Below are positions 1-32,920 of a DNA stretch of 35,415 nucleotides, piece by piece. How positions within the stretch are numbered: the stretch's first letter is position 1; each line of letters opens with the position of its first letter. The translations under genes and the position numbers were made by a program. Below the pieces are notes generated by a model, which saw nothing but the letters and a program-made list of their open reading frames with translations, searched no databases and had not been told where the DNA came from. This stretch comes from Alphaproteobacteria bacterium (GTDB lineage: Bacteria > Pseudomonadota > Alphaproteobacteria > UBA9219): contig JARLJD010000186.1 of assembly GCA_031291395.1 (NCBI GenBank), positions 1 through 35,415 on the forward strand, read 5' to 3'.

Positions 1-1866
1 GACGTGACGATCACCAACGCGGGGGTGGCGACGGTGGGGAGGATACAGAATGTGGCGGTGGGATCACCGACGGGGGTGGCGGGGAGCGCGGTGGTGTTGG
101 CGAACTCGCCGACAATGATCGGGACGGCCTCGGTGGCGAATATCGCGGCTTCGGGGTATGCGGCGACGACGCTGGAGGGCGATTACAGCTTGACCGGCGA
201 TCTGTCGGACGCCGCGATCAGCGCGGCTTCGGCGGTGCGGTTTACCGGCGCGACGGCGACGACGTTCGAGGGGATTGCGGCGGGGGTTTCGGGGCAGATT
301 CTGTACCTGCACAACGCCTCGCCCACCGCGACGCTGACTCTGGCCGACCAAAGCGATTCGACCGACGGGACGGCGGGAAGCAAGATCATCACCGGCACGG
401 GGGCGGATGTAACGTTGCCCGCGAACACGTCGATGTCGTTGCAGTACGACACGGCGGCGCAGCGCTGGCGCGTGACGGGGACAAGCAACGTCAGCGGCAG
501 CACGGTCAGCGCAGGGACGCAGTACGAGATGGCGTATTACAGCGCGGCGAACGTGGTGAGCGGGGACAGCGGGATCGTGACGGATGCGAGCAATGATTTT
601 CTAGTGACGGCAGGGAAGGTGGGGATCGGGATCACAGCGCCCGCGCAGATGCTCGACGTGAACGGCAATATCAACGTCCACACGATCGCGAGTGGTTATT
701 ATATCGCGAACAACGAAGTCCTGTTTCAGCCGGGGGGCGATACCAACAGCATTGCTGTCGGTCAGGGCGCGGCGGCGTCGCAAGCGGCAGGTTGGGAGGC
801 AAACACAGCCGTGGGGTACCAAGCTCTAACCGCAAACACAGTCGGTTCGGGCAACACGGCTCAAGGCTTTCAAGCTCTTTACAGCAACGGGGGCAACAAC
901 AACACGGCAGTAGGGTACGGTGTGCTTCACTATAATTGGGGCGGCTCCAACAATACCGCTGTTGGTTCCGGAGCGCTTTATTTTAGCAATGCCTCACAAA
1001 GCAACAACAATACTGCCGTAGGCGCAGGAGCAGGCAGCTCTCTTAGCGGCGGCAATAACACGATCCTCGGCTATCAGGTAGCCTCATCCGTCTTGGGTTC
1101 AGGCTCAAACAACATCCTGATCGGCACGACACAGTACACAGACACGCAATCGCCGTCGGACTCTAACACGCTGAACATCGGCAATCTGATTTACGGGACG
1201 GGGTTGGGGACGACGAGCACGGCTCCGGCTGGGTATGTGGGGATTGGAACCGCGTCGCCAAATTTCACGCTGGACGTGAGCGGGAGCGCAAGGATCAACA
1301 AGCCGGGTTCGTCGGGCAATATATTAGAGCTTTGGGGAAACGGTGGTTGGCTTGTCAAGGTTCCGGCCTCGGGCAGTAACGTTGTTTTAGGGACTGGCCT
1401 CACATGGAATGGCATTACACATCCTTTCGTTTATAACGGCTCTGGTTCCAATTCAGCGCTTACAATCGGCGGTGGGTCTTCAACGACAGGCTCCTTCCTT
1501 GATCTGGAATCGACCGTGGGGGCAGTAAATCCCTCAAACGATTATATCGTTTTCGGCGTGAACAATGCCGCGACCGAAGCCATGCGGATCGTCCACAGCG
1601 GTGCTGTCGGCATCGGTACCACATCTCCCAATTCCCTGCTGCAGGTTTACAACGGCGAAGTGCAGGTTGGCTCCAGCGGGAACACTTGCACCTCGGCTAA
1701 TGCGGGGGCGATCCGGTATGCGGGGGGGACGGTTTATGTTTGCGATAGTACGTTGAATTGGGATGTGTTGGGGGGGGCTGGGGGGGGCGCGTTGCCCTCG
1801 TTGGCTAATGGAGACATCTGGGTTGGCAACGTCTCCAACGTTCCAACGCCCGTGGCGCTGTCCCAA
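1..1866 (+). repeat. Long in-frame repeat unit 1 of the giant gene
   Basis: The unit is 622 codons and begins with DVTITNAGVATVG. It contains a conserved scaffold, a YadA-head-like cassette, the shared NILIGTTQYTDTQSPSDSN segment and a closing segment ending in PTPVALSQ. Its scaffold is nearly identical in DNA to units 2 and 3, which indicates recent duplication or gene conversion. The unit may be incomplete on the left, because the window starts here. Confidence 0.85.
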
Positions 1867-4800
1867 GACGTGACGATCACCAACGCGGGGGTGGCGACGG
1901 TGGGGAGGATACAGAATGTGGCGGTGGGATCGCCGACGGGGGTGGCGGGCAGCGCGGTGGTGCTGGCGAATTCGCCGACGCTGACGGGAACGGCCTCGGT
2001 CGCCAATATCGCGGCTTCGGGGTATGCGGCGACGACGCTGGAGAGCGATTACAGCTTGACCGGCGATCTGTCTGACGCCGCGATCAGCGCGGCCTCGGCG
2101 GTGCGGTTTACCGGCGCGACGGCGACGACGTTCGAGGGGATTGCGGCGGGGGTTTCGGGGCAGATTTTGTATCTGCATAACGCCTCGCCCACCGCAACGC
2201 TGACTCTGGCCGACCAAAGCGATTCGACCGACGGGACGGCGGGAAGCAAGATCATCACCGGCACGGGCGCCGACATAACCCTGCCCGCGAACACGTCGAT
2301 GTCGTTGCAGTACGACACCACAGCGCAGCGCTGGCGCGTGACGGGAACAAGCAACGTCAGCGGCAGCACGGTGAGCGCCGGGACGCAATACGAGATGGCG
2401 TATTACAGCGCGGCGAACGTGGTGAGCGGGGACAGCGGGATTGTGACCGATGCGAGCAATGATTTGCTGGTGACGGGTGGGAAGGTGGGGATCGGGACGA
2501 CGGGGCCGGCTGCAAAGCTCGACGTCTATGGCGCGATTGATCTGAATGGTGTGAACGGGATTTCGCAGCCTGCGGGGGATACGACGGGCATCGCGGTTGG
2601 GAATGGGGCGCTGGGCTCGCAGACGGCTACCGGTTTGCACAATGTGGCCGTCGGGTATCAGGCGCTTAATCATGATAATGCGGATGATAATACAGCTCTT
2701 GGCTATCAGGCTCTTTACAGTTTGTCCGTCGGACATCACGACACGGCCATAGGGTCAGGTTCGGATTATTACGACACAAGTGGAACTTTTAACACGGCGA
2801 TAGGATTTGGAGCTCTCTATCTTAACGTGGGCGGCGGTGATAATACGATAGTGGGGGCTTTTGCTGGCGGCGGCAGTGGCAGCTGGTTGGGGGGCAGTAA
2901 CAACACGGCTGTTGGGGTCTCCGCGCTTAACCAAATTCAGGGTAATGCGAGCAACAACACTTCTCTGGGTGCAGGAGCTGGTTCCGCCATTACGATTGGC
3001 AACAGCAATATCGCGATCGGTCCCAACGTCGCCAACACAATCCTTTCCACCGGCTCCAACAACATCCTGATCGGCACGACGCAGTACACAGACACGCAAT
3101 CGCCGTCGGACTCCAATACGCTTAACATCGGCAATCTGATTTACGGCACGGGGTTGGGGACGACGAGCACGGCTCCGGTTGGGAATGTGGGGATCGGGAC
3201 GGCGTCGCCGAATTTCACGCTGGACGTGAGCGGAACCGCAAGGATCAATACGCCGGGTTCGTCGGGCAATGTATTAGAGCTTTGGGGGAATGGGGGTTGG
3301 ATTGTTCAGGTTCCGGCCTCGGGCAGTAACGTTGTTTTAGGGACTGGCCTCACATGGAATGGCATTACACATCCCGTCGTTTATAACGGCTCTGGTTTCG
3401 GGAACCCCAATTCAGCGCTTACAATCGCCGGTGGGTCTTCAACGACAGGCTCCTTTCTCGACCTAGAGGCGACATGGGGGGCAGCAAGCCCCTCAGACGA
3501 TTATATCGTTTTCGGCGTGAACAATAGGGCGACCGAAGCCATGCGGATCGTCCACAGCGGTGCTGTCGGCATCGGCACCGCCTCGCCCAACTCTCTGCTG
3601 CAGGTTTACAACGGCGAAGTGCAGGTTGGATCCAGCGGGAATACTTGTACTTCGGCTAATGCGGGGGCGATACGGTATGCGGGAGGGTCGGTTTATGTTT
3701 GTGATAGTACGTTGAATTGGGATGTGTTGGGGGGCGCAGGCGGGGGCGCGTTGCCTGCGCTGGCTAATGGAGACATCTGGGTTGGCAACGCCTCTAACGC
3801 CCCAACGCCCGTGGCGTTGTCTCAGGACGTGACGATCACCAACGCGGGGGTGGCGACGGTGGGGAGGATACAGAATGTGGCGGTGGGGTCGCCGACGGGG
3901 GTGGCGGGGAGCGCGGTGGTGTTGGCGAACTCGCCGACGATGATCGGGACGGCCTCGGTGGCGAATATCGCGGCTTCGGGGTATGCGGCGACGACGTTGG
4001 AGGGCGATTACGCCTCGACGGGGGATTTGGACGATGTCGCGATCAGCGCGGCCTCGGCGGTGCGATTTACCGGCGCGACGGCGACGACGTTCGAGGGGAT
4101 TGCGGCGGGGGTTTCGGGGCAGATTTTGTACCTGCACAACGCCTCGCCCACCGCGACGCTGACTCTGGCCGACCAAAGCGATTCGACCGACGGGACGGCG
4201 GGCAGCAAGATCATCACCGGAACGGGAGCGGATGTAACGTTGCCCGCGAACACGTCGATGTCGTTGCAGTACGACGCAGCGGCCCAGCGCTGGCGCGTGA
4301 CGGGGACGAGCAATGTGAGCGGCAGCACGGTCAGCGCCGGGACGCAGTACGAGATGGCGTATTACAGCGCGGCGAACAGAATCAGCGGGGACAGCGGGAT
4401 TGTGACGGATGCGGGGGGGGATTTGCTGGTGACGGGGGGGAAGGTGGGGATCGGGACGACGTCGCCTGCCAATAAACTCGATATTATTGATCCGACAAAT
4501 CAGGTCGTGGTGGAACTTGTGTCTAAGGCGCAATTTAAACAGCCAATCATAAAGTTAGTGGGTTATCCCCAAGGCATAGGAGACAAGGTTGGGCAGCTTT
4601 CCTGGGTTTGGGATGGAAATACGGTCGCGGACATATCTTCGGTTCGAGATGCCAATAATACAACTGATGCGCAGTCAGATTTGGTTTTCAGCACGTCTGG
4701 AACTGAGAGACTGAGAATAGATTTAGTGGGGAACATCGGGATTGGGACGACGTCGCCGGTGCAGGCGTTGGATGTGAATGGGAATGTGAATGTTGAGTAT

Positions 4801-7800
4801 AAATCAACAAGCAGCGGGTATTATTTGTCCGGCGCACAGGCTTTGTTTTTCCCCAACAATGACAACACCAGCATCGCAATAGGAAACGGCGCGGCAGGCA
4901 CAACGGCTGCAAGTCCTACGGGCACGAGCCAAAATACTGCCGTTGGTTATAAGGCTTTGGGAGGCGGCGGGTACAATACGGCTGTCGGGTATCAGTCTTT
5001 GGCGTCTGACGTAAGTTATTACAACACAGCAGTTGGCAATGGCGCGTTGCAGAACTGCGCATGGTGTGAGGACAATACAGTTTTAGGTACCTATGCTGGA
5101 TATTCGATAGCATCAGGGGCAACAGTTTATTCCAATACAATCATTGGTGCGTGGTCGTTGCACGGCTCTTCTGAGAACATAAACGGTTCAGGTAATACGG
5201 TTGTAGGTGCCGGTATCGGCGGCGTTCTTACTTCTGGAGGGTATAACACAATTATGGGGGCTGGCGTTGCCAGCACGACGCTTTCCACCGGCTCCAACAA
5301 CATCCTAATCGGCACGACGCAGTACACAGACACGCAATCGCCGTCGGACTCTAACACGCTCAACATCGGCAACCTGATTTACGGCACGGGGTTGGGGACG
5401 ACGAGTACGGCCCCGGCGGGGTATGTGGGGATCGGGACGACGGCACCAAGTGCAACGCTGGATGTTCAGAGCGCACCGGCGGGTACAGGTTATGCGGTAA
5501 ATGTTCTTGGTAACAATGAGGTAAACGGACTATTTGCATCTGCGGCGAACGCTAATGCGATTACCGGCACGAGCTATGGCGGGGGCAAGGACATATATGG
5601 CACTGGCGCATATGCAACCGCCGGATGGTTCGAACAGGTAGGATTTAATTATTACAATTATTCAACCCCTGTTTTAGTAGCCTACAGAAATAACGGCGGC
5701 AATTATAATACAGGCGCGGTATTGCATGTCGAGGACAACACAGCGTCTCCCGCCAACCTTCTCGAAGTCGTTAAACAGTCCAATTACGATTTTGTCATAA
5801 ATAATTCAGGCAGCGTCGGGATCGGGACTACGAGTCCTGCGGATACGTTGGACGTGACGGGAACCGGCATTCATATAGCCAGCGGCACGCCGGGGGCGAC
5901 TACTTATGATTTGTACAACAGCGGTGGCACGCTTTACTGGAACGGGAATGCGTTGCTGACCAGCGGGGGGTCAGGCGTGATCTCCGGGGCGGGGACGGTT
6001 AATTATGTGGCGCGGTGGACGCCGAACGGGGTGACGCTGGGGACGGGGACGCTTTATGATAATGGGACGCAGGTCGGGATCGGGACGACGACGCCCGCGG
6101 AACTGTTGACCGTGGCAAAGGCGGACAGCGGGGTTTATGCGGCGTCTTCGACCTCGGCCTATGCGCCGTGGACCAGCGGGGCGAGCGCGGTGGTGCAGGC
6201 GTATAATACCTCGGCGACCGATGGCGGCGCGGCTTACGACGCGTTCAAGGTGACCAATGCGGCAGGGGATGCGCAGCAGGCTTATATTGGGGCGGTCTCG
6301 ACAACCGGCAGCGGGGTTTACAGTCCGGCTCTGACGTTTGGGGCGCAGAGTGGGGCGGGGGCGTATAATGAGTATATGCGGATTACGGGGGATGGGAATG
6401 TGGGGATCGGGACGACGTTGCCAAGTACAAGTCTTGAGGTAGATGGTGTCACGAATCAAACTGCTTTAACCGTCGCGGCAACCGCGAACCATCCGGCCTC
6501 AATTTACGCTATAACTGCAAACGGCTCGGGCCCGACCACGGGCGGTATTTACGGCAGTTCCGAAAATGGCACTGGCATCGAAGGAGTTGCTTGGCTAAAT
6601 AACCAATACGCAATTTATGGGCATTCTGGCAGAGGTGGCGCTGGCTACTTTGCGCAAACCGGTTCAATTTATCAAACATATACATCGCCAGTTCTTTATG
6701 CATACAGAGATAACGGCACGGTTGGTGGTAATGACCAAACAGGCGCGATTTTAAGAGTCGAAGAGAATGACACCTCCTCCGGCAACCTGCTGGAAGTGGT
6801 TAAACAATCTAATTACAAATTTGTCATAAATAACTCCGGCAACGTCGGAATCGGGACGGCAAGCCCTGTTTCCTCTCTGCAGGTGGCGACGGGCGGGTTG
6901 CTTTCGGTGACGGGGGCTTATGGGGCTGGCGACACTTTGCCCGCAGGACTGACCGGTGCGGGGACGCGTATGTTTTTCTATCCTAACAAGGGAGCTTTCA
7001 GAGCGGGGACTGTTTTGGGCAGCGAATGGGACGACGCCAATATTGGCGCTTACAGCGTGGCAATGGGGTATCATACGGTCGCTTCTGGCGATTATTCTCT
7101 AGCGGCGGGGATGAGTTCTGCTTCTGGCGCATTTTCAACGTCGATGGGGTGGAATACTTCCGCTTTTGGCTCGACTTCCACGGCGATGGGGGGGGATACG
7201 GACGCCGCTGGCGTTAGTTCCGTTTCGATGGGGTTTGCCACCTATGCTGGTGGCGATTACAGCACGGCGATGGGGTATTGGACAAGCGCCGGAGCCTACG
7301 AAGATATTGCGTTAGGCCAATATAATGTAGGAGGTGGGAACGAGACTACATGGGTTGCGACCGATCCCGTATTCGAAATCGGCATCGGCACATCCTCAAC
7401 CGCCACGGCTAACGCAGTTACGGTGCTTAAGAATGGGAATGTGGGGATTGGGACGGCAAACCCGTTTGCCTCGCTACAGATATTAGGCGGCAGCGGAACG
7501 ACATATACGCTTGATGTCTCAAACAACTATTCCGGAGGAAACGCGCCCATCGCCATTAAAGGCGCTGTTGGCGGTACCGGCGGTGTTGGGGTGGCTGGAT
7601 ACACCTCAGGAAGCAATGGTGTCGGCGTATATGGACAGAGCAGCCAAAGTGACGGTATCGCTATTAGCGGAAATAACGCCGCTTCCACTGGCTATGGAGG
7701 ATATTTTTCAGGTGGAGCGACCGCCCTTTATGCAGGCGGTGCGACTTACGCCGGTGTATTCATGGGCGGCAACGTCGGGATTGGAACGACGGCACCAAGC

Positions 7801-10518
7801 GCGCCTTTGGAGGTAGTTGATAACCAAGCGGCGGGAACTTCTATTAATGTGGTCAATAATAACAGCGGAGCCTATTCTTACGCAGGCTTTGAAGCCGCTT
7901 CAGGCACAGCAACGACGTCATTAGTGCAAATGAGCAGTAATTACGGCAGTTATGGCGCAATTCAGATGTGGGGTGGACAGCATGATTTTTATATTTATCA
8001 GGATGGAACATTTACGGCGTACTTTAGTGGCACAACGTACGGCCTTTCACTTGGAACCTACGCTAGAGATTCGAAGGTACCGCCCACCAACGGGTTGATT
8101 GTAAGCGGCAACGTCGGCATCGGCACCACCGCCCCCTCCCAACCCCTAACCGTCTCCGGCAATATCGACGTTATGGGGGGCAACAGCGGGTATTTGACGG
8201 AGATTGCGAACGATACGGCGACGGGGACGGGGCTTTATCTGTTGGCTAAGCTGAACAGCTCTGGCGCGGCGGTGATTGCGGGGGCGGGGGACAGCGACGG
8301 GGTGGTGGGCGTTGTGATGGGCGGCAACGGCACGACCGGCAATGCGCAGATTGCGGTGGGCGGGCAGGCGGTTTGCACGTTCGACGCTTCGGGCGTGACG
8401 GCGGCGGGGGATTTCGTCACGATCAGCAGCACGACCGCCGGCGATTGCCACGACAGCGGCAGCCAGACGCGCAGCGGCCTTAGCAGCCAGACAATCGGTC
8501 AGGTGCTAAGCACGACCGCGGTCAGCGGCAGCAATTACCCGATCACGGTGGCGCTGAACGGTTCGGGCGGCGGCGTTCCGGCTGGCACGACGGGACAGGT
8601 GCAGTTCAACAGCGGCAGCAGCACGTTCGCGGCCGACAGCCACATGACGTGGGACAACACGAACAAGATTCTGACGATCGGCACGGGCGCGGCTGTGCCG
8701 GTGGCGACGACCGGAGCGATGGCCAGTTTCGTGGTGAATGTGATTCCTCAAGCGACGGTGTCCTATGGCGTTTTGGGCAGCGCAAACACCGGCGCGACGG
8801 TGGGCGCGGCGACGGCGGGACAGGTGGCCTATTACTCGGGCGCCAATGCGATTTCGGGCACGGCGGCGCTGACGATCTCGGGCAGTTATGTGGGGGTGGG
8901 GACGGCGGCGGCGGGACAGGCTTTGACCGTCGGCGGCAATGTCGATGTGATCGGCAACGCCGTTTTGACCGAAATCGCGAATGCGCCTTCCGGCACGGCG
9001 GCGAACGAGCTGGCGAAGCTGACCTCGGGTCAAGCCGCGACGACGGCGATCACGGACACGGACGGGGTTGTGGGCATCGTGGTCGGCGGGGCTGGGACGT
9101 CGGGGAATGCGCAGATCGCGGTGGCGGGGCAGGCGGCTTGTTTGTTTGAAAACGCGGCGGTGGCGGGGGATTTCGTGACGATCGGCGCCACGACGGCGGG
9201 GCAGTGCCATGACGCGGGGGCGACTCGTCCGGCCAGCGGCGGCGAGACGGTGGGGCGTGTGCTGGCGTCGGGGCCTGCGGGGTCGGCTTATGCGGTGGCG
9301 ATAGCGATCGCGCCCAGCAGCGGCAACAGCGGCAACACGGCGGCGGCGTTCAGTTTTACGAACCAGACGGGGGTGAGCATGAGCAGCGCGATTTCCTCGA
9401 ACGCTGTGACGCTCTCGGGATTCAGCGGCACACTGACGGCGACGTGCGGAACAGGCTGTACGGCGATTGCGCGTAACGGCACATGGGGCGGCACAACGGT
9501 TTCGGGCTTTCAGTCGGGGGATACGATCGCGATCCGGCAAACTTCATCCGCCAGCGCGAACACAGGCACCAATGCCACGGTGACGGTCGGAACGACGGTC
9601 TCCGGCACATGGACGGTGACGACGAACAACAACACGGCCAGCGCGTTCAGCTTTACGAACCAAACGGGCGTCAGCGGCAGCATCCCCGTTATCAGCAACG
9701 CGGTGGTGGTAAGCGGCTTCTCCGGAACCTTGACGGCGACGTGCAACGCGGGCTGCACAAACATAGCGCACAACGGCGTGTGGAGCGGCACGATAGCGAC
9801 GGGCGTCGCGGCGAACGACACGATCGCTATCCAGCAAATCTCATCTACGACCACCGGCGGCACTGCGACGGCCTCGGTCACGGTCGGCAGCACGGTATCC
9901 GGCACATGGACGGTGACGACAGGGGCTGACGCGTGCCCCGCCGTCAGCACGCCGGGCACCGTTTGCGGCAGCGGCCTTGTTTACGCCGGAGTTTCGCCGG
10001 ATACAGGGGCGAAAATGTACACGACGCCGTGCGACGCCAATGCCTACTGGAACGGATCCAGCTGTACGGCCTGTGCGTCGGGCGTCTGGACGGGATCCGG
10101 AACATCGTGCAGCACGACGATCAATGGCGTGTCCGTCGGAGCCGGCCCCGGAATGACATGGAATAATGGCACCGGCAATTGGATACTTGAGGGTGTTACA
10201 TCCTCGCTGACAGGTAAAGCGAACACAGCGTTTTTGGTGGCTTCTACAGACATGGGGTATCCCTATAAGGCCGCCGATTATTGCGCAAGCCTGTCTTCCG
10301 TCTATGGATACAGCGACTGGTATTTGCCAAGCGCAAGTGAACTGAATGTTCTGTATAGCTACAAAGGGGCTATAGGAAACTTCAATACGGGCGGTTCGTA
10401 CTACTGGTCGTCCACGGAGTACGATAGTTACAACGCGTGGTACCAGCAGTTCAGTGGCGGCAACCAGGGCTACTACGGCAAGAACGATTCGTATCTTGTT
10501 CGTTGTGTTCGGAGATGA
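1..10518 (+). CDS. Giant modular repeat protein with C-terminal DGR-diversified lectin-like domain (5' partial)
   Basis: The frame is open from base 1, so the start lies upstream. The GTG at 4 is not a start, because the same DVTITNAG stretch recurs mid-protein at 1867 and 3826. The visible 3,505 residues are mostly repeats: three long units to about 5450, then shorter modules. A VGIGTTSP-type hinge followed by a hydrophobic strand recurs many times, as in tail-fibre-like and large surface proteins. NTAVGYxAL or SxAMGY repeats resembling YadA/Hep_Hag heads lie near 740-1080, 2590-3060, 4870-5290 and 7020-7320. Two 99-codon repeats (9346-9921) and a Cys-containing linker lead to a DUF1566/Lcl-like domain (about 10120-10515) with DWYLPSASEL, YYWSSTE and terminal LVRCVRR. 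That fold family is a known DGR target. A surface-displayed or secreted fibre with a variable binding tip is inferred; no secretion signal is visible. GGG-rich scaffold segments alternate with AT-richer cassettes. Confidence 0.9.
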   Translation, partial: DVTITNAGVATVGRIQNVAVGSPTGVAGSAVVLANSPTMIGTASVANIAASGYAATTLEGDYSLTGDLSDAAISAASAVRFTGATATTFEGIAAGVSGQILYLHNASPTATLTLADQSDSTDGTAGSKIITGTGADVTLPANTSMSLQYDTAAQRWRVTGTSNVSGSTVSAGTQYEMAYYSAANVVSGDSGIVTDASNDFLVTAGKVGIGITAPAQMLDVNGNINVHTIASGYYIANNEVLFQPGGDTNSIAVGQGAAASQAAGWEANTAVGYQALTANTVGSGNTAQGFQALYSNGGNNNTAVGYGVLHYNWGGSNNTAVGSGALYFSNASQSNNNTAVGAGAGSSLSGGNNTILGYQVASSVLGSGSNNILIGTTQYTDTQSPSDSNTLNIGNLIYGTGLGTTSTAPAGYVGIGTASPNFTLDVSGSARINKPGSSGNILELWGNGGWLVKVPASGSNVVLGTGLTWNGITHPFVYNGSGSNSALTIGGGSSTTGSFLDLESTVGAVNPSNDYIVFGVNNAATEAMRIVHSGAVGIGTTSPNSLLQVYNGEVQVGSSGNTCTSANAGAIRYAGGTVYVCDSTLNWDVLGGAGGGALPSLANGDIWVGNVSNVPTPVALSQDVTITNAGVATVGRIQNVAVGSPTGVAGSAVVLANSPTLTGTASVANIAASGYAATTLESDYSLTGDLSDAAISAASAVRFTGATATTFEGIAAGVSGQILYLHNASPTATLTLADQSDSTDGTAGSKIITGTGADITLPANTSMSLQYDTTAQRWRVTGTSNVSGSTVSAGTQYEMAYYSAANVVSGDSGIVTDASNDLLVTGGKVGIGTTGPAAKLDVYGAIDLNGVNGISQPAGDTTGIAVGNGALGSQTATGLHNVAVGYQALNHDNADDNTALGYQALYSLSVGHHDTAIGSGSDYYDTSGTFNTAIGFGALYLNVGGGDNTIVGAFAGGGSGSWLGGSNNTAVGVSALNQIQGNASNNTSLGAGAGSAITIGNSNIAIGPNVANTILSTGSNNILIGTTQYTDTQSPSDSNTLNIGNLIYGTGLGTTSTAPVGNVGIGTASPNFTLDVSGTARINTPGSSGNVLELWGNGGWIVQVPASGSNVVLGTGLTWNGITHPVVYNGSGFGNPNSALTIAGGSSTTGSFLDLEATWGAASPSDDYIVFGVNNRATEAMRIVHSGAVGIGTASPNSLLQVYNGEVQVGSSGNTCTSANAGAIRYAGGSVYVCDSTLNWDVLGGAGGGALPALANGDIWVGNASNAPTPVALSQDVTITNAGVATVGRIQNVAVGSPTGVAGSAVVLANSPTMIGTASVANIAASGYAATTLEGDYASTGDLDDVAISAASAVRFTGATATTFEGIAAGVSGQILYLHNASPTATLTLADQSDSTDGTAGSKIITGTGADVTLPANTSMSLQYDAAAQRWRVTGTSNVSGSTVSAGTQYEMAYYSAANRISGDSGIVTDAGGDLLVTGGKVGIGTTSPANKLDIIDPTNQVVVELVSKAQFKQPIIKLVGYPQGIGDKVGQLSWVWDGNTVADISSVRDANNTTDAQSDLVFSTSGTERLRIDLVGNIGIGTTSPVQALDVNGNVNVEYKSTSSGYYLSGAQALFFPNNDNTSIAIGNGAAGTTAASPTGTSQNTAVGYKALGGGGYNTAVGYQSLASDVSYYNTAVGNGALQNCAWCEDNTVLGTYAGYSIASGATVYSNTIIGAWSLHGSSENINGSGNTVVGAGIGGVLTSGGYNTIMGAGVASTTLSTGSNNILIGTTQYTDTQSPSDSNTLNIGNLIYGTGLGTTSTAPAGYVGIGTTAPSATLDVQSAPAGTGYAVNVLGNNEVNGLFASAANANAITGTSYGGGKDIYGTGAYATAGWFEQVGFNYYNYSTPVLVAYRNNGGNYNTGAVLHVEDNTASPANLLEVVKQSNYDFVINNSGSVGIGTTSPADTLDVTGTGIHIASGTPGATTYDLYNSGGTLYWNGNALLTSGGSGVISGAGTVNYVARWTPNGVTLGTGTLYDNGTQVGIGTTTPAELLTVAKADSGVYAASSTSAYAPWTSGASAVVQAYNTSATDGGAAYDAFKVTNAAGDAQQAYIGAVSTTGSGVYSPALTFGAQSGAGAYNEYMRITGDGNVGIGTTLPSTSLEVDGVTNQTALTVAATANHPASIYAITANGSGPTTGGIYGSSENGTGIEGVAWLNNQYAIYGHSGRGGAGYFAQTGSIYQTYTSPVLYAYRDNGTVGGNDQTGAILRVEENDTSSGNLLEVVKQSNYKFVINNSGNVGIGTASPVSSLQVATGGLLSVTGAYGAGDTLPAGLTGAGTRMFFYPNKGAFRAGTVLGSEWDDANIGAYSVAMGYHTVASGDYSLAAGMSSASGAFSTSMGWNTSAFGSTSTAMGGDTDAAGVSSVSMGFATYAGGDYSTAMGYWTSAGAYEDIALGQYNVGGGNETTWVATDPVFEIGIGTSSTATANAVTVLKNGNVGIGTANPFASLQILGGSGTTYTLDVSNNYSGGNAPIAIKGAVGGTGGVGVAGYTSGSNGVGVYGQSSQSDGIAISGNNAASTGYGGYFSGGATALYAGGATYAGVFMGGNVGIGTTAPSAPLEVVDNQAAGTSINVVNNNSGAYSYAGFEAASGTATTSLVQMSSNYGSYGAIQMWGGQHDFYIYQDGTFTAYFSGTTYGLSLGTYARDSKVPPTNGLIVSGNVGIGTTAPSQPLTVSGNIDVMGGNSGYLTEIANDTATGTGLYLLAKLNSSGAAVIAGAGDSDGVVGVVMGGNGTTGNAQIAVGGQAVCTFDASGVTAAGDFVTISSTTAGDCHDSGSQTRSGLSSQTIGQVLSTTAVSGSNYPITVALNGSGGGVPAGTTGQVQFNSGSSTFAADSHMTWDNTNKILTIGTGAAVPVATTGAMASFVVNVIPQATVSYGVLGSANTGATVGAATAGQVAYYSGANAISGTAALTISGSYVGVGTAAAGQALTVGGNVDVIGNAVLTEIANAPSGTAANELAKLTSGQAATTAITDTDGVVGIVVGGAGTSGNAQIAVAGQAACLFENAAVAGDFVTIGATTAGQCHDAGATRPASGGETVGRVLASGPAGSAYAVAIAIAPSSGNSGNTAAAFSFTNQTGVSMSSAISSNAVTLSGFSGTLTATCGTGCTAIARNGTWGGTTVSGFQSGDTIAIRQTSSASANTGTNATVTVGTTVSGTWTVTTNNNTASAFSFTNQTGVSGSIPVISNAVVVSGFSGTLTATCNAGCTNIAHNGVWSGTIATGVAANDTIAIQQISSTTTGGTATASVTVGSTVSGTWTVTTGADACPAVSTPGTVCGSGLVYAGVSPDTGAKMYTTPCDANAYWNGSSCTACASGVWTGSGTSCSTTINGVSVGAGPGMTWNNGTGNWILEGVTSSLTGKANTAFLVASTDMGYPYKAADYCASLSSVYGYSDWYLPSASELNVLYSYKGAIGNFNTGGSYYWSSTEYDSYNAWYQQFSGGNQGYYGKNDSYLVRCVRR
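1867..3825 (+). repeat. Long in-frame repeat unit 2 of the giant gene
   Basis: The unit is 653 codons and has the same scaffold as unit 1. The cassette between about 2515 and 3060 differs in sequence and length from the one in unit 1 while keeping the NTAVGYQAL-style pattern. The downstream NFTLDVSG to WDVLGG segment is highly similar to unit 1. Confidence 0.85.
3826..5450 (+). repeat. Long in-frame repeat unit 3 of the giant gene (diverges at its 3' part)
   Basis: The scaffold restarts at 3826 with the same DVTITNAG sequence and stays near-identical to about 4470. It then carries two cassettes (about 4480-4740 and 4790-5290). After the shared TQYTDTQSPSDSN segment (about 5320-5430) the architecture changes to other modules. 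The 3' boundary is approximate. Confidence 0.75.
9346..9921 (+). repeat. Two tandem ~99-codon repeats just before the lectin-like domain
   Basis: Copy 1 (9346-9642) and copy 2 (9643 to about 9921) both start AFSFTNQTGVS and end GTWTVTT. Each contains the pair of cysteines in the pattern TATC-x2-GCT. They sit between the fibre modules and the C-terminal variable domain, so they may form a stalk. The two-cysteine pattern could allow a disulphide within each copy; this is inference. Confidence 0.8.
10391..10514 (+). repeat. DGR variable repeat (VR)
   Basis: The VR aligns without gaps to the TR with a constant offset of 836 bases. The 11 differences are at VR 10420, 10423, 10429, 10441, 10468, 10469, 10471, 10474, 10477, 10478 and 10486. 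TR has A at each; VR has T at five and G at six. They change nine Asn codons to five Tyr, two Asp and two Gly. The last 28 bases (10487-10514) are invariant and are where the initiation of mutagenic homology would lie. The region encodes the end of the lectin-like domain up to two codons before the stop. Confidence 0.96.
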
Positions 10519-10554
10519 ATCATTCAAATATTCAATTATTTTCTTTCTTTCTGA

Positions 10555-10569
10555 ACCCGCGAAGCGGGT
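10555..10569 (+). other. GC-rich stem-loop between VR and avd
   Basis: The stem is a perfect 6-bp ACCCGC/GCGGGT with a GAA loop, 37 bases after the stop of the giant gene. A run of A then six T (10574-10584) follows. Known DGRs often carry a short GC-rich hairpin just downstream of the VR that is needed for efficient target recognition. Here it is about 40 bases from the VR end, farther than in the Bordetella phage. It could instead be a weak intrinsic terminator of the giant gene. Confidence 0.5.
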
Positions 10570-10592
10570 CGAAGAAAATTTTTTGAGGGAAA

Positions 10593-10940
10593 ATGGCGCA
10601 ATATAAACATCTTCCGATTTACAAAGGCACCTATGATCTGTTAATGCGGATTACGGTAGTGACGAAGGATTTCCCTCGTGAACATAAATACACTTTGGGG
10701 CAGAAGCTGCGGGATGAGGTTTTGGATTTGATCCTTTTCATCTACCGCGCAAACAGCGCCACGGATCGCACGGCGCACATCACGGCAATCATCGAACGCA
10801 TACAATTGGTTGAAGTTATGCTTCGTTTGGCGCATGATCTGCGCGTGATCTCGCGCGGTCATTACGCGGGGCTTGCAGAAATGACAGACAGCCTTGCGCG
10901 GCAAGCGCAAGGTTGGCTCAAGAGTTCGGGGAGGAGATAG
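10593..10940 (+). CDS. avd: DGR accessory variability determinant (Avd), four-helix-bundle protein
   Basis: This is a 115-residue, mainly helical, basic protein. It starts MAQYKHLPIYKGTYDLLMRI and contains the DLILFIYRAN and HITAIIERIQLVEVMLRLAHDL helices typical of the Avd/S23-like four-helix-bundle family. Avd proteins form a pentameric barrel that binds the RT and the TR RNA and are needed for mutagenic cDNA synthesis; this is family knowledge. TTGAGGGA lies just before the ATG at 10593. Position between VR and TR is the common DGR layout. Identification rests on length, pattern and position. Confidence 0.9.
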   Translation: MAQYKHLPIYKGTYDLLMRITVVTKDFPREHKYTLGQKLRDEVLDLILFIYRANSATDRTAHITAIIERIQLVEVMLRLAHDLRVISRGHYAGLAEMTDSLARQAQGWLKSSGRR

Positions 10941-11226
10941 CCTGAACAGGCATGAGCCACGGCTCGGCTTGGCGCGCATATTCATCTCGGATAGCGGCGG
11001 TGTTCTGTAACGTAATATTCCATTCAGAAAGGTGTACGGCCCGTGCCGGAAAACCGTCGCCCGTCTTCAAGGAAGCAAAGCGCTTCCGACAAGACCGGCA
11101 GCGTTACCTGAAGTCAAAGGATATGATTTGCAGACCACCAAAGGAGAGGCGAAGGAGTCGCTGAAGTCATCTCCGGTGATAAGCTTCGCCGGGGATGTTC
11201 ATAAGATCGCTATCGAAACGTCAGTT
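10941..11226 (+). other. Avd-TR spacer, probably the 5' part of the DGR template RNA
   Basis: I see no convincing gene here; the short open frames change phase and read through the TR in the wrong frame. A 7-bp inverted repeat GGCGAAG (11148-11154) / CTTCGCC (11184-11190) lies just upstream of the TR. Degraded similarity to the sequence preceding the VR is visible around 11195-11222 (shared ATGTTC, GCTAT and GAAAC blocks). In studied DGRs the template RNA extends beyond the TR and is structured. Confidence 0.45.
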
Positions 11227-11350
11227 GCGGTTCGTACTACTGGTCGTCCACGGAGAACAATAGTAACAACGCGTGGAACCAGCAGTTCAGTGGCGGCAAC
11301 CAGAACAACAACAACAAGAACAATTCGTATCTTGTTCGTTGTGTTCGGAG
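11227..11350 (+). repeat. DGR template repeat (TR)
   Basis: This is a non-coding 124-base copy of the VR. Read in the target frame it has 12 Asn codons (ten AAC, two AAT), clustered at 11256-11270, 11277 and 11298-11324. It has 37 adenines, 24 of them in the first two positions of those Asn codons. All 11 changes seen in VR fall in these 24, and none in the 13 other adenines. AAY codons can mutate at the first two positions without ever giving a stop, which is the typical DGR design. Confidence 0.96.
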
Positions 11351-11389
11351 TTGGATTCTCTTCCCCGATGCTAAGCTTGCCGTAAGAAG

Positions 11390-12532
11390 ATGTCACAGAA
11401 GCTTCCACGCCCAGACGCTGAATTAACCCTTGAATCGGTGTTCGACGCTTATTTTGATTGCCGTCGTCATAAGAGGAACACGCTTTACCAGCTTGCGTTT
11501 GAGGCCGATCTGGAACGGAATCTTCTGGCGCTTTGGCGCGACTTGCGCGACGGAACTTACCAGATAGGCCGCAGCATCGCCTTCGTGGTTCAGCACCCCA
11601 AAACGCGCGAAGTCTGGGCTGCCAGTTTCCGTGACCGCATCGTTCATCACCTGATTTACAACGCAATCCGCCACCGTTTTTACGCGGGGTTTATCCGGGA
11701 CAGCTATGCCTGCATTCCGGGACGCGGAACGCATGACGGATGCTGCCGCATTTCCGGCTTTGCGCGGTCGGTCACGCGCAACTGGACGCGTCAGGCCTTT
11801 GTGTTGAAGGCGGATGTCGCCAGCTTTTTCACCAGCATCAACCGCCATGTTGTCTTGATGCAAGTTGAAGTGAGGGTGCATGAGGAATGGCTGCGCCGGT
11901 TAATTCGGCAAGTCGTTCTTCACGATCCCCGCGAAGGCGCGATTTTGCGGTCGTCGCAAGCGCTGTTCGCCAAGGTGCCGAGGCACAAGAGCCTTTGGCA
12001 CGCTCCGGAGGGATTCGGTTTGCCTATTGGCAATCTTACGAGCCAGTTCTTTGCCAACGTTCACCTTGATGCCCTTGACCAGTTCGCCAAGCATGACTTG
12101 CATGCGCATTACTATGGACGTTATGTGGACGACATCCTGATGTTTGACGAAAGCCCCGATGTGCTTAATGAACGTTATGCAAAGATGGAGAGGTTTTTGT
12201 TGGATCGGTTAGGGCTGCACCTGCATCCCAACAAAAAGAAACTGCACCCTGTCGCGCAAGGCATCGACTTTGTGGGCTTCATTATCAAGCCCGGGCGAAC
12301 CTATCTGCGCAATGCTTCGCTGGCTCGTTGCAAGCAAAAGATACGGGCGTGGGAGCGCGAGGGATCATCCGTCGATCCGCAAAGGTTGGAAAAATTAGGC
12401 CAGTCAATCACCAGCTATCTCGGCATGTTGCGTCAAGTGAACGGCTTTCGCGCAAGGCAACACCTGTGCCAGAACTTTCGCAGCCTGTTCATTTATGCCG
12501 ATGCGGAATGCACGAAATTGGTGGTGCCTTGA
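11390..12532 (+). CDS. DGR reverse transcriptase
   Basis: This 380-residue RNA-dependent DNA polymerase is compact, as is usual for DGR RTs. Visible motifs are R-x-V-x-H near residues 81-89 (FRDRIVHHLIYNAI), the first catalytic Asp in KADVASFF (D142), IGNLTSQ at 213-219, and the catalytic YVDD at 245-248 followed by ILMF. Glutamine in the SQ motif, where retroviral and group II intron enzymes usually have SP, is characteristic of DGR RTs. GFIIKPGRTYLR near 305 fits the thumb-side motif. The ATG at 11390 follows AAGAAG and starts 40 bases after the TR. No maturase or endonuclease domain is present, as expected. Confidence 0.95.
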   Translation: MSQKLPRPDAELTLESVFDAYFDCRRHKRNTLYQLAFEADLERNLLALWRDLRDGTYQIGRSIAFVVQHPKTREVWAASFRDRIVHHLIYNAIRHRFYAGFIRDSYACIPGRGTHDGCCRISGFARSVTRNWTRQAFVLKADVASFFTSINRHVVLMQVEVRVHEEWLRRLIRQVVLHDPREGAILRSSQALFAKVPRHKSLWHAPEGFGLPIGNLTSQFFANVHLDALDQFAKHDLHAHYYGRYVDDILMFDESPDVLNERYAKMERFLLDRLGLHLHPNKKKLHPVAQGIDFVGFIIKPGRTYLRNASLARCKQKIRAWEREGSSVDPQRLEKLGQSITSYLGMLRQVNGFRARQHLCQNFRSLFIYADAECTKLVVP

Positions 12533-12551: not shown

Positions 12552-13358
12552 TCAGATGGGAAGGGGAAAGACGCGGGGTTCCACCCCCGCGCCCTTCTTC
12601 TCGTTTTCCGTTCTCGTTGGCTCTTTCCTGTAATACGCCGCCAACCTCTGTCTCGCCTGCGGCAAATCTCCGTCGCGCGGAATCAATAGGCGCGAATGCG
12701 GGTTGGCGAAGACGTGGCGCGACAGGAAATGTCCGGTCATTTCCAGACCTTGAAAAATATCCGAAGCAGGCCATTCGCCGCCGCCCAGAAGAAAGGCGGG
12801 CAGGAGGAATAATTTGTCGTGGTAAGGTTTTCCGGCGTCAAGCGATACCGCGCGGCCTGTGCGCGGGCTGATATAGGCCAGATTTTCCGTATCGCCGCTG
12901 GCGGCGCAGCGGGTCAGGTCGAGGCCGTAACCCAAAGCCTGCAGCAAGCTTATCTCCCATTTAACGTAAACGGGCGCCCATAAATCGGCGTCCTGCAACG
13001 CCAACAGCGAGGCCAGCCCCGCATAAACCCCCGGCATCGGCTGGCGTTCGGGCAGACTGGCCTCTGTCACGGCGCAGGCGCTGGCGATGATCGAGAGAAC
13101 CTCCGGCGCATCTAGCCACACAGCGGCTTGCGCCGCCGTCAGATCGAGCGCAAAAGTGCCGAGCTGATCGATCAACCGCGCGCGCCATTGCGCCTGCACG
13201 CGATTGCCCGGCTGCAATGTCGGCCGCGCCGTCCGTCCCTGCCCGCCGTGAACCAGCCCCGCATGCCGCCCATGCGCCGCCGTCAGCAACGTCACCACCG
13301 CGGCATTCTCGCCATGGGGGCGGGCGGAGAGAACAATGCCTTCGTCGATCCATTCCAT
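12552..13358 (-). CDS. recO: DNA repair protein RecO
   Basis: This 268-residue recombination mediator of the RecFOR pathway helps load RecA on SSB-coated single-stranded DNA. The N-terminus, MEWIDEGIVLSARPHGENAA, followed by a short gap and HGRHAGLVHGG, is the conserved OB-fold region of alphaproteobacterial RecO. A helical C-terminal domain with GYGLDLTRCAASG follows. No zinc-binding Cys cluster is obvious. After the normal end (about LAAYYRK) there are about 20 extra Lys/Glu-rich residues, encoded where the opposing RT stem-loop lies. No clear ribosome binding site precedes the ATG. It converges with the DGR RT, with a 19-base gap. Confidence 0.92.
   Translation of the reverse strand: MEWIDEGIVLSARPHGENAAVVTLLTAAHGRHAGLVHGGQGRTARPTLQPGNRVQAQWRARLIDQLGTFALDLTAAQAAVWLDAPEVLSIIASACAVTEASLPERQPMPGVYAGLASLLALQDADLWAPVYVKWEISLLQALGYGLDLTRCAASGDTENLAYISPRTGRAVSLDAGKPYHDKLFLLPAFLLGGGEWPASDIFQGLEMTGHFLSRHVFANPHSRLLIPRDGDLPQARQRLAAYYRKEPTRTENEKKGAGVEPRVFPLPI
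12572..12591 (+). terminator. Possible terminator of the DGR RT (overlaps 3' end of recO)
   Basis: A perfect 7-bp stem CGCGGGG/CCCCGCG with a 6-base loop begins 40 bases after the RT stop. It is followed by a pyrimidine-rich but not pure T tract. It lies inside the last codons of the opposing recO gene. The weak T tract keeps this tentative. Confidence 0.4.
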
Positions 13359-25649: not shown

Positions 25650-26153
25650 ATGTTTCTGGCTCTGACAGCCTTTCACGTTGCGATCGTGTTTATTGCCGCT
25701 ACTGTTTTCGTTGCGGCTGCGGTCAGCGACGCGCATTCCTACCGTATCCCTAACTCTATGTGCGGATTGCTTTTGTTAATGTATCCCGTTTTCGTCGTCT
25801 CGGCGCCTCATACAGTTTTATGGCGGCAGAGCTTGGCCGTATTTGGCCTTGTTTCAATCGTCGGATTCGCCGCTTTTCTCGGCAAATTTGTGGGCGCGGG
25901 GGATGTTAAACTGCTGGCCGTCTCCAGCCTATGGGCGGGCCCGCATCTTGTGGCCGTGTTTCTGGTTGTGACGGCTTTTGCTGGCGGCGTTCTGTCCATC
26001 GTTATGGCGCTCGCGGCGCAGCTGCGGCTGCGCAAAGCCGGTTCGCGCAAGGTAGAATGGACCAAAGTGCAAATTCCCTACGGTATCGCTATCGCGACGG
26101 GCGGTCTGGTTACGCTGGGCCTGATAGCAAAGCCGATCCTGTTGCCCGGTTGA
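25650..26153 (+). CDS. cpaA: Prepilin peptidase CpaA/TadV
   Basis: A 167-residue polytopic inner-membrane aspartic protease (A24 family) that cleaves, and usually N-methylates, Flp prepilin. The two catalytic aspartates are visible: D27 in AAVSDAHSYRIPN and D85 in GAGDVKLL, the GxGD motif. It is the short form without the N-terminal methylase domain, as in TadV. It is first in the assembly operon, nine bases before cpaB. Confidence 0.93.
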   Translation: MFLALTAFHVAIVFIAATVFVAAAVSDAHSYRIPNSMCGLLLLMYPVFVVSAPHTVLWRQSLAVFGLVSIVGFAAFLGKFVGAGDVKLLAVSSLWAGPHLVAVFLVVTAFAGGVLSIVMALAAQLRLRKAGSRKVEWTKVQIPYGIAIATGGLVTLGLIAKPILLPG

Positions 26154-26162
26154 GAGGTTGTT

Positions 26163-27035
26163 ATGGCCACACGTAAGATCATCTTGCTGCTTTTAGCTGC
26201 GGTTATCGCTCTCGGCACAGTGTTCCTTGTGCATGGCATGCTGACGCCCGAGGCTGTCAAGCCTGCAGAGCAGCAGCCTGTCGCGCCCATCACCGAAATC
26301 GCCGCCGCTGCGCGCGATTTGCCGACCGGAACCATTTTAAAAGAATCCGATTTGAAATGGATCCAGTGGCCTGCCGGTGCCGATACCGACGCTCTTCTTG
26401 TTAAAGGCAAGACGACGTTGGCGGATGCCGCTGGCGCTGTGGTGCGCGACGGCTTTCGATCCGGTGAGCCGATTATCTCGGCTCGCATCGCGCATCCGAA
26501 AGATCAGGGTTTTCTGGCAGCAGTTTTGACTCCCGGCATGCGCGCGATGTCGGTCTCTCTGACGCCGACGGCAGAAGTCGCAGGCTTTATCTTCCCGGGC
26601 GACCGCGTCGACGTCATTTTGACCCACAGCTTCAGCCGCAAGGACAGCCCCGATTTGACCGAGCGCCGCGTCAGTGAAACCATCTTGCAAAATGTGCGCG
26701 TGTTGGCGCTCGACCAGCGCAGCGACAATCAGTCGACCGACCCCAAAATCGCACAGATTGCGACATTGGAGGTTGGCGAGAAACAAGCGGAAAAACTGGC
26801 GCTGGCGATCGACATGACCGCAGGGTCGTCCGCAAACAAGGCCGCTTTGTCGCTTGTGCTGCGCAGCCTTGCCAGCGACGACAAGAGCCTTGCCGACAAA
26901 AAACCGGAGCCGACATGGGATAGCGATGTCAGCTCGGCCTATCCAACTGTCAATGGCAGTGACGGCTTGATACAGCGCGTGCAGGTCATGCGCGGCAAAA
27001 CGATTACCGAAGACACATTCGAACGACACAGGTAG
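26163..27035 (+). CDS. cpaB: Flp pilus assembly protein CpaB/RcpC
   Basis: The 290-residue protein has an N-terminal membrane anchor (KIILLLLAAVIALGTVFLV) and a SAF domain (AAARDLPTGTILKESDLKWIQWP). The CpaB/RcpC core follows (LTPGMRAMSVSLTPTAEVAGFIFPGDRVDVILT). It is periplasmic and thought to link the secretin to the rest of the Tad machine or to bind peptidoglycan. It is followed after five bases by cpaC. The order cpaA-B-C is the Caulobacter one. Confidence 0.93.
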   Translation: MATRKIILLLLAAVIALGTVFLVHGMLTPEAVKPAEQQPVAPITEIAAAARDLPTGTILKESDLKWIQWPAGADTDALLVKGKTTLADAAGAVVRDGFRSGEPIISARIAHPKDQGFLAAVLTPGMRAMSVSLTPTAEVAGFIFPGDRVDVILTHSFSRKDSPDLTERRVSETILQNVRVLALDQRSDNQSTDPKIAQIATLEVGEKQAEKLALAIDMTAGSSANKAALSLVLRSLASDDKSLADKKPEPTWDSDVSSAYPTVNGSDGLIQRVQVMRGKTITEDTFERHR

Positions 27036-27040
27036 CTTCG

Positions 27041-28582
27041 ATGAAACGCTTTTTTCCGCTTCTCGTCTTTCTTCTGATCGCAACGCCCGCGTTGGCGCGG
27101 CCAGAGATTCTGTCCCTTACCGTCGATCACGGCAAGCCGTTGACGCTGCGCGCCGCTGCGTCGAGCGTATTTGTCGCCAATCCCGATATTGCGGACGTTC
27201 AGGTCATGTCGCCCACGCAGGTCATGCTTTTCGGCAAGCGCACGGGCGAAACCTCGTTTCTGGCCACCGACGACAAGGGCGCGATTTTGGCGCAGCGCAC
27301 CGTTGTCGTGACGCAGGATTTATCCGGACTGCGCGAAGAGCTTGCCGCCGCGATTCCCGGTAATGCGATCAAAGCCAAACCTGTCCCGAACGGCATCGTT
27401 CTGACGGGAACTGCCAGAGACGCCACTTCTGTCGCCGACGCTTATAAAATCGCGATGCGCTATATGCCTTCCGGCGGCGACATTATCAACCGCATTCAGG
27501 TGACGGGCAGCAACCAGATTCAAATCCGCGTGCGCTTCGCCGAAGTGCAACGCAATATCGACAATTCGCTTGGTTTTGATTGGCAAAATATTCTGACGGT
27601 AGGCAGCGGCATGACCATTGGCCTTGCTACGGGTAGCACCGTCAATTCGGGTCTTACCGTCGGGACGACCGGCAGCAGTTCCTCCGGCCTTTTCCCGCGT
27701 CCCAACAACACGACGCTTAGCACGCCCAACAATGTTCTGGGCGTAGCGCTTCATTCAGGCCATCTTACCGTCGACGGCATGATCGACGCTTTGGCGCAGG
27801 ACGGGCTTCTGACGATGCTGGCCGAGCCGACTTTGACGGCGATGTCGGGCGAAACCGCCAATTTCCTTGCCGGCGGCGAATTCCCGATTCCGATCCCGCA
27901 AGGCAACGGCACGATCAGCATTACGTTCAAGGACTACGGCATTTCGCTGGCTTTCACCCCGACCTTGCTGAGCGGCAACCGCATCAGCTTGCATGTGCGT
28001 CCGGAAGTCAGCGAATTAACGGATACGGGCTCAATCGTGATGGACAACATCACCGTTCCCGCTTTGACCACGCGCAAGGCCGAGACTACGGTTGAGGTTG
28101 CAAGCGGCGAAAGCTTCGCCATTGCCGGTTTGATGGATAACAGTCAGGCGCAAACGGTCAATAAATTCCCGCTTCTGGGCGACATGCCGGTTTTGGGCGC
28201 CTTGTTCCGCGACGATCATTTCCAGAACGGACAGACCGAGTTGGTTGTCATCATCACGCCCTATATCGTCAAGCCTTCGGGGGAGAAATTGGCCTTGCCG
28301 ACCGACGGCTATGCGCCGCCGACGGAAAACGAAAGGCTGGCCGGTATGCGCTATAGCAGTGGCGATCCCAACGCGCGCCCGATGAGCGGCGATCCGGTCG
28401 CTGTTCCTGCAGCGCCAGCCGCTGCGCCCGTCATGCCTGTTTCTAGCGCGTCTAACGCGGTCAAAACACCGGCGCTGCAGACGCCTGTTGCGTCTGCGCC
28501 TGCCGCTGCGGCCGCGCCGCCGCTTGTATTGCATCCCGCAAGCGATACGGATAAACGCAGCGGCGGCCTTTTAGTGGAGTAA
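27041..28582 (+). CDS. cpaC: Tad secretin CpaC/RcpA
   Basis: The 513-residue outer-membrane channel protein has a signal peptide (MKRFFPLLVFLLIATPALA). The N-terminal pilus-assembly domain follows (SSVFVANPDIADVQVMSPTQVMLFGKRTGETSF), then a BON-like segment, then the secretin domain. This includes LLTMLAEPTLTAMSGETANFLAGGEFPIP and FPLLGDMPVLGALFRDDHFQNGQTELVVIITPYIVKP. A Ala/Pro-rich tail of about 90 residues extends beyond the secretin core. It forms the gated pore through which the pilus exits. Confidence 0.96.
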   Translation: MKRFFPLLVFLLIATPALARPEILSLTVDHGKPLTLRAAASSVFVANPDIADVQVMSPTQVMLFGKRTGETSFLATDDKGAILAQRTVVVTQDLSGLREELAAAIPGNAIKAKPVPNGIVLTGTARDATSVADAYKIAMRYMPSGGDIINRIQVTGSNQIQIRVRFAEVQRNIDNSLGFDWQNILTVGSGMTIGLATGSTVNSGLTVGTTGSSSSGLFPRPNNTTLSTPNNVLGVALHSGHLTVDGMIDALAQDGLLTMLAEPTLTAMSGETANFLAGGEFPIPIPQGNGTISITFKDYGISLAFTPTLLSGNRISLHVRPEVSELTDTGSIVMDNITVPALTTRKAETTVEVASGESFAIAGLMDNSQAQTVNKFPLLGDMPVLGALFRDDHFQNGQTELVVIITPYIVKPSGEKLALPTDGYAPPTENERLAGMRYSSGDPNARPMSGDPVAVPAAPAAAPVMPVSSASNAVKTPALQTPVASAPAAAAAPPLVLHPASDTDKRSGGLLVE

Positions 28583-28585
28583 GAG

Positions 28586-29062
28586 ATGACTCAATCCCGT
28601 CTTCCCCTTTTTGCTTTCAGCTTGCTGGCTCTCTCTGCCTGCGCCGATCCCTATACGCCGACCCCGCGTCCCGATTACGCGATCGGCGTTGTGCCGACGA
28701 GGCAGGGGAGCATCGCTGTGCCTCCGGCTTGCCCAAGCTGGGCGACGGCCACGACCGACCCTTATGATAACCAGCCTTTGCCCCAGTTCGGTTGCGCCAG
28801 CGCGCGCAATCTGGCTTCTATGGTTGAAAATCCCGACGATTTGCTCAAGGGTCGTCCTTTGGCCAATGAACGCGGCGTGCATGCCGTCGGCGACGTGCGC
28901 CGTTATGACAACAATCAGACGCGCGGTTTGGTCATGCCGGCTGCGGAGGACAGCCAGATCGCGGTAACGACAGCGCCAGCTTCTTCGTCTGCTTTAAGCG
29001 GCGACATCACTGGCGCGGCTTCTTCGTCCTCCTCAACGGCAACGGCGGCAGCAGCGCCATGA
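28586..29062 (+). CDS. cpaD: Tad pilus lipoprotein CpaD
   Basis: A 158-residue predicted lipoprotein. The signal peptide ends in the lipobox LSAC with the lipidated Cys at 19. The family signature follows: PQFGCASARNLASMVENPDDLLKGR, close to the CpaD consensus F-G-C-A..N-L-A-x-M-V-x-x-P-x-D-L. It is shorter than many CpaD proteins, which have a longer N-terminal domain, and has a Ser/Ala/Thr-rich tail. It likely helps localise the secretin. It overlaps cpaE by ATGA. Confidence 0.88.
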   Translation: MTQSRLPLFAFSLLALSACADPYTPTPRPDYAIGVVPTRQGSIAVPPACPSWATATTDPYDNQPLPQFGCASARNLASMVENPDDLLKGRPLANERGVHAVGDVRRYDNNQTRGLVMPAAEDSQIAVTTAPASSSALSGDITGAASSSSSTATAAAAP

Positions 29063-32917: not shown

Positions 32918-32920
32918 ATC

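Follow-up and report, generated by a model that had tools for sequence, protein, structure and literature searches.

The closest described system to the element reported here is the diversity-generating retroelement (DGR) of BPP-1/BIP-1, a phage cassette with the order mtd-VR-avd-TR-brt, in which a template repeat (TR) and a variable repeat (VR) differ at adenines only and the VR forms the 3' end of the target gene. That cassette also includes an Avd protein, a reverse transcriptase (RT) with an SQ motif, a target (Mtd) with a C-type-lectin fold, and a hairpin after the VR. We analyzed a 35,415-nucleotide stretch of alphaproteobacterial DNA (contig JARLJD010000186.1 of assembly GCA_031291395.1; hereafter the window) and found a DGR that shares each of these features, with an RT 35% identical to that of BPP-1/BIP-1. 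The two differ in their setting and target, the BPP-1/BIP-1 element being phage-borne and directed at Mtd, whereas the window element is very probably chromosomal and rewrites the Lcl_C tip of a giant cell-surface fibre with a shaft of the mosaic adhesive trimer (MAT) type. They differ as well in the hairpin, which has a GAAA tetraloop 4 bases from the VR in BPP-1/BIP-1 and a 3-nucleotide GNA loop at 40 bases in the window.

Three further groups of known systems bear on the locus. DUF1566, or Lcl_C, has been reported as the commonest Pfam domain among DGR targets (PMC4159848, PMC6642488); the window shares this domain, which here forms the tip of a fibre that is at least 3,505 aa long and has a MAT-like shaft. 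The MAT fibres of Bdellovibrio are displayed on the cell surface and interact with prey, and one of them, Bd2740, ends in a C-type-lectin tip that its authors likened to Mtd (PMC10769870). The window target resembles these fibres in its shaft repeats (Bd2133) and its C-terminal lectin tip (Bd2740), but Bd2740 has 627 aa, MATs are typically ~1,000 aa and come without a described DGR, and the window target is longer, with its N-terminus beyond the contig edge. Lastly, the nearest phage RTs (45-50% identical), from Pseudomonas phage SC_8_H2H8_2017, Shewanella phage QDWS and Burkholderia phage Magia, likewise accompany adenine-only TR/VR pairs, with two VRs each, and Magia has an annotated lectin-fold target and an Avd, as in the window. 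Unlike the window element, these three DGRs reside in phage genomes and have small targets, and their hairpins are not of the window's GNA type. The DGR machine of the window is ordinary and its fibre target is the unusual part; this target, the 3-nucleotide-loop hairpin and an apparent recO rearrangement at the site go beyond what a first-pass annotation, made from the sequence alone, had described.

The cassette and its repeats

The elements of the cassette follow the BPP-1 order, namely the target with the VR at its 3' end, hairpin, avd, TR and rt:

1-10518, + strand: DGR target gene, an open frame of at least 3,505 aa with its 5' end cut by the contig edge; a predicted giant fibre with an Lcl_C tip
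1150-8301, + strand: shaft region of the target, with repeated G-x-V-G-I-G-T-x-x-P-x-x-x-L-x-V modules
10156-10512, + strand: C-type-lectin-like Lcl_C (DUF1566) tip of the target (PF07603, 58.8 bits, cut-off 34.9)
10391-10514, + strand: VR, just before the target stop codon
10487-10514, + strand: constant 3' end of the VR, the likely initiation of mutagenic homing (IMH) site; TR counterpart at 11323-11350
10555-10569, + strand: target-site hairpin ACCCGC-GAA-GCGGGT, 40 bases 3' of the VR, with a 6-bp stem and a 3-nucleotide GNA loop
10593-10940, + strand: Avd, accessory variability determinant, 115 aa (PF22296 bAvd, PHROG 3206)
11227-11350, + strand: TR, between avd and rt; the donor copy, whose adenines alone differ from the VR
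11390-12532, + strand: DGR RT, 380 aa, with an ATG start, GLPIGNLTSQF (SQ) and YVDD motifs, and an RVT_1 match

When realigned, the TR and VR span 124 columns with 0 gaps and 11 mismatches, and the pair was also recovered by independent repeat finding. The mismatches fall on 11 of the 37 TR adenines and on 0 of the 87 other bases (Fisher one-sided P = 5.1e-7), six being A>G, five A>T and none A>C. Read in the target frame, the TR contains 12 Asn codons, and 11 of the 24 adenines at their first two positions are changed, compared with 0 of the 13 adenines elsewhere (Fisher P = 0.003). All 11 changes are non-synonymous. These counts reproduce exactly the gap-free, adenine-confined alignment that the first-pass annotation had reported, together with its restriction of changes to the first or second base of Asn codons. 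No third codon position of the TR is an adenine, which makes silent changes there impossible in this element. The identity of the two repeats stops at 10515/11351, one base 5' of the target stop codon TGA (10516-10518), for which the TR has TGG. The 28 bases 3' of the last changed site are the same in both repeats, and this constant end is likely the IMH, by analogy with BPP-1. No third copy occurs in the 2.41-Mb genome, where the only other matches were two of 18-19 bases, and an exact search of viral contigs with a 21-base TR stretch returned none.

The earlier description of an intact, complete element, with Avd and an SQ-motif RT beside the repeats, is borne out by Pfam, PHROG and PDB matches and by the reading frames. 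The best solved relative of the RT is the BPP-1 bRT (8ub7, E 2.8e-48 in a PDB search), with group II intron RTs well behind. In a tree of 29 RTs, the phylogenetic check that had been proposed, the window RT joins the DGR RTs, as sister to L011 (support 98/91) in an 11-row clade (100/99) on the DGR side, with the group II introns placed outside (100/99). An inner 15-row clade is also well supported (97/99); support is only moderate (84/80) at the node uniting all DGR RTs, and long branches lead to several phage rows. The Avd matches PF22296 bAvd at 56.6 bits (cut-off 40) and PHROG 3206 at E 1.9e-27. According to the list of open reading frames (ORFs), the Avd and RT frames are intact and the target frame is open to its stop. 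An Rfam search of the window gave no matches.

On the BPP-1 model, a TR-containing RNA would be copied to cDNA by the RT with Avd, random bases being placed opposite adenines, and the cDNA would replace the VR at the target 3' end. The constant 3' end would serve as the priming site for this replacement, which the hairpin 40 bases beyond would aid. Twelve NNY-type codons of the tip surface would be randomized in this way, each to at most 15 residues and never to a stop, with the scaffold kept.

Relatives of the RT and the target-site hairpin

RTs 61-70% identical to that of the window were found in three IMG/VR contigs and in uncultured metagenome-assembled genomes (MAGs), most of which are labelled Alphaproteobacteria and one Micavibrio sp. 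UBA6139; nearly all carry the same cassette. Of the 129 differences counted over ten TR/VR pairs from the RT clade, 125 are at adenines; adenines account for 347 of the 1,294 bases. The most direct sign of activity comes from L023 and L025, near-identical loci of different metagenomes whose RT is 63% identical to that of the window. Their TRs are identical, and a 1,982-base block holding both repeats contains 18 differences, every one in the VR at a TR-adenine position, which shows adenine-directed rewriting in nature by this RT clade. Substitutions at non-adenine sites, named by the first-pass annotation as a sign against its interpretation, were not seen in this block between these two relatives. 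The clade is therefore active in nature, and we infer the same for the window's own copy.

The relatives also qualify how far the Asn pattern can be generalized. Non-Asn adenines, third positions included, are changed in L023, L025 and L069; the Asn-only pattern seen in the window is hence a matter of adenine placement and selection on the protein, with no rule of the enzyme behind it. The ceiling of about 15 residues at each of 12 sites, put forward earlier, is therefore right in its NNY arithmetic, but its premise that only Asn codons vary does not hold as a rule, with relatives changing other adenines, silent ones among them. The lack of A>C in the window (0/11) was likewise dropped as a trait of the enzyme, since 17 of the 125 adenine changes in the clade are A>C.

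Several loci of the clade have peculiarities of their own. In L016, L017 and L023-L025 the RTs at first resembled DGR-like RTs lacking TR, VR and Avd, a description we rejected, as those parts sit on the strand opposite the RT. Directly upstream of such convergent RTs lies a conserved ORF of ~100 aa (L016 4674-4988, L017 154-456, L023 4670-4981), which had no Pfam or PHROG matches and is possibly a new DGR accessory protein. The RT of L025 is split over two frames (5019-5937), either an inactive copy or an assembly error, and yet its VR is diversified relative to L023. L069 (contig 23 of G003) is a second DGR in a relative, at 2223-2377 and 3826-3980, with VR changes at adenines of Asp, His and Asn codons. 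In L013 (17-3528), one TR, with long AAC runs, and one RT serve two target-VR-Avd cassettes; the MAG is labelled Bryobacterales although its RT is 69% identical to that of the window, which suggests transfer or misbinning. NN gaps fall exactly in the variable part of the VR in L014 (864-865) and L018 (4109-4110), from a Micavibrio-labelled MAG; they may reflect VR heterogeneity, but we did not take them as a sign of it, since a plain TR/VR repeat can equally break an assembly. L011 and L012 (G002 and G003) were considered as a strain pair, but the overlap compared has no differences and the same VR, and so is uninformative on variation.

DGR hairpins and cruciforms have been described as GC-rich, with 7-10 bp stems, 4-nucleotide GRNA loops and a spacing of 4-34 bp, and BPP-1 homing drops to near background when the loop sequence is altered or the loop is lengthened by 2 nucleotides (Guo et al. 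2011, PMC3240598). The window hairpin, with its 6-bp stem, 3-nucleotide loop and 40-base distance, lies outside these ranges. A GC-GNA-GC core nevertheless follows an AT-rich spacer, in the corresponding place, at 10 of the 11 sites of the RT clade; the exception is L015, whose scanned stretch contains no GC-GNA-GC hairpin. At five of the seven pairs, at least one member has both bases changed, for a total of 12 compensatory cells, and the covariation score was reached by 0 of 500 shuffles. The search pattern fixed the two inner base pairs, and the best-matching stems were chosen, which leaves the outer pairs alone as covariation evidence. Among random 90-base stretches of these loci, 23 of 3,000 have a hairpin with a 3-base GNA loop and a stem of at least 6, and, as a control, the same scan recovers the known GAAA hairpin of BIP-1/BPP-1. 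DNA folding of the hairpin region as a whole is no better than that of shuffles (z -0.33); support for the hairpin is its conservation, to which energy contributes nothing. A conserved hairpin with a 3-nucleotide loop would represent a natural variant of the target-site signal, useful for finding what reads that signal.

A giant fibre with a lectin-like tip

The VR encodes the end of the Lcl_C domain. An AlphaFold model of the tip, built with 44 homologues, reached a middling predicted local distance difference test (pLDDT) score of 69.5; a 4-sequence alignment gave just 44.5 and was discarded. The model matches the C-terminal domain of Legionella Lcl (Foldseek E 1.1e-3; Z 7.6, root-mean-square deviation (rmsd) 2.9 over 88 residues), Bacteroides BACOVA_04982 (Z 8.4) and the C-terminal domain of Bdellovibrio Bd2740 (Z 7.5, rmsd 2.1 over 78 residues), with C-type lectins coming next. 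Among the 44 Lcl_C homologues, variability within the VR peaks at the 12 TR-Asn sites (3.15 versus 1.35 bits, P = 4.6e-5), and the scaffold residues K113, R120 and R123 are invariant. The VR would then form the ligand-facing part of the C-type-lectin tip. In the host family, the 1.5-Mb genome G018 encodes 18 Lcl_C proteins, many of them less than 1 kb from contig ends, and does not have this RT.

Upstream of the tip, we counted 15 GIGT-type shaft repeats in the target ORF, and a profile of the repeat gives sixteen matches between 559 and 8301. Searched against all PDB chains, this profile retrieved five Bdellovibrio structures, 8ond (Bd2133, E 2.2e-16), 8oml, 8ojn, 8ol4 and 8on4, and nothing beyond them at E < 0.1. 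Four of the entries are titled 'cell wall surface anchor family protein', and we read them as MATs from their entry names and numbering. The profile matches indicate that the shaft repeats are homologous to those of MAT fibres. ORFs with such repeats occur in 13 of 23 host-family genomes, several being 3,000-4,000 aa long and most genomes not having this RT, and the target of one relative, of 420 aa, begins with a hydrophobic, signal-like stretch.

We infer from these comparisons that the fibre would be displayed on the cell surface, where its tip may bind other cells or surfaces. No paper joining a DGR to a MAT-like giant fibre was found in the literature searched. To our knowledge, the DGR machinery is well known, and the ligands of cellular DGR targets are mostly not. 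A fibre with a DGR-targeted tip and a shaft resembling those of Bdellovibrio prey-recognition fibres raises the testable idea that bacteria may vary their attachment to other cells by targeted hypermutation. We speculate, and consider it doubtful rather than probable, that the element lets a Micavibrio-related bacterium change rapidly which prey or partner it recognizes, by randomization of the adhesive tip of a MAT-type fibre. If so, a single fibre gene could gain new cell-surface targets, a bacterial counterpart of the phage tropism switching known from the BPP-1 tail.

Genomic site and alternative explanations

The rest of the window consists of chromosomal genes, including those for RecO, glycosyltransferases, a porin, a chloride channel and pilus secretion, and holds no phage genes; the sole terminase match lies on another contig. 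Genomes of the same genus have the order thioredoxin, glycosyltransferase, recO, parC. In the window, an intact recO (12552-13358) adjoins the DGR, and a second contig (C90, contig 90 of G000) carries recG, a 431-base piece of recO, an isochorismatase-like gene and parC. This piece (L073 8290-8720) is 95% identical to window positions 12622-13052. Provided that the MAG is correct, the cassette would sit at a rearrangement or insertion with partial duplication of recO.

Several observations weigh against a chromosomal DGR that rewrites a cell-surface fibre. The window element is known from one genome and one VR sequence. The contig starts inside the target, leaving the signal peptide, N-terminus and upstream neighbours beyond its edge, and the N-terminus was not found on other contigs. 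Confidence in the tip model is middling, and Z values of 7-8 may by themselves reflect a common arrangement. The Avd scores 55.8 bits against NCBIfam NF033474, under the cut-off of 80. Finally, the shaft module also matches phage tail-fibre and tail-spike families in PHROGs, so that a cell fibre and a phage fibre cannot be told apart by homology to MAT shafts alone.

The single VR sequence would also be expected if the DGR were decayed or dormant, its VR last rewritten long ago and now fixed. The RT is rare near the host, present in 4 of 33 genomes of the order and 1 of 10 of the genus, and an element so patchy, missing from nine other genus genomes, could be a relic. We nevertheless regard dormancy as improbable: the RT, Avd and target frames are intact, relatives of the same clade vary in situ, and the lack of any TR/VR difference outside adenines leaves room for little neutral drift since the last rewriting.

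That the target might instead be the tail fibre of an integrated phage, with the DGR as its host-range cassette, is suggested by the PHROG matches of the shaft, the end of the contig within the target, the phage-borne nearest RTs outside the clade and the recO rearrangement marking the site. On its other side, the recO break is flanked by a chromosomal gene (recG); the remainder of the window is chromosomal too, and the signal-like start of the 420-aa target counts against a phage origin. A cell fibre is favoured because the neighbours are chromosomal and shaft-repeat proteins are common across the host family (13/23 genomes), and we consider a prophage rather improbable. A plain duplication followed by selection on Asn codons, without retrohoming, would account for changes that are all non-synonymous and confined to one type of residue, but has next to no chance of being correct given the 87 unchanged non-adenine bases (P 5e-7), the adjoining DGR RT and Avd, and the recurrence of the pattern in ten pairs of the RT clade, third-position adenines of L023, L025 and L069 included.

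Further along the window, at 25650-33883, lie genes for a secretin, a T2SSE ATPase and two T2SSF proteins, with neighbours that resemble a Tad pilus operon.

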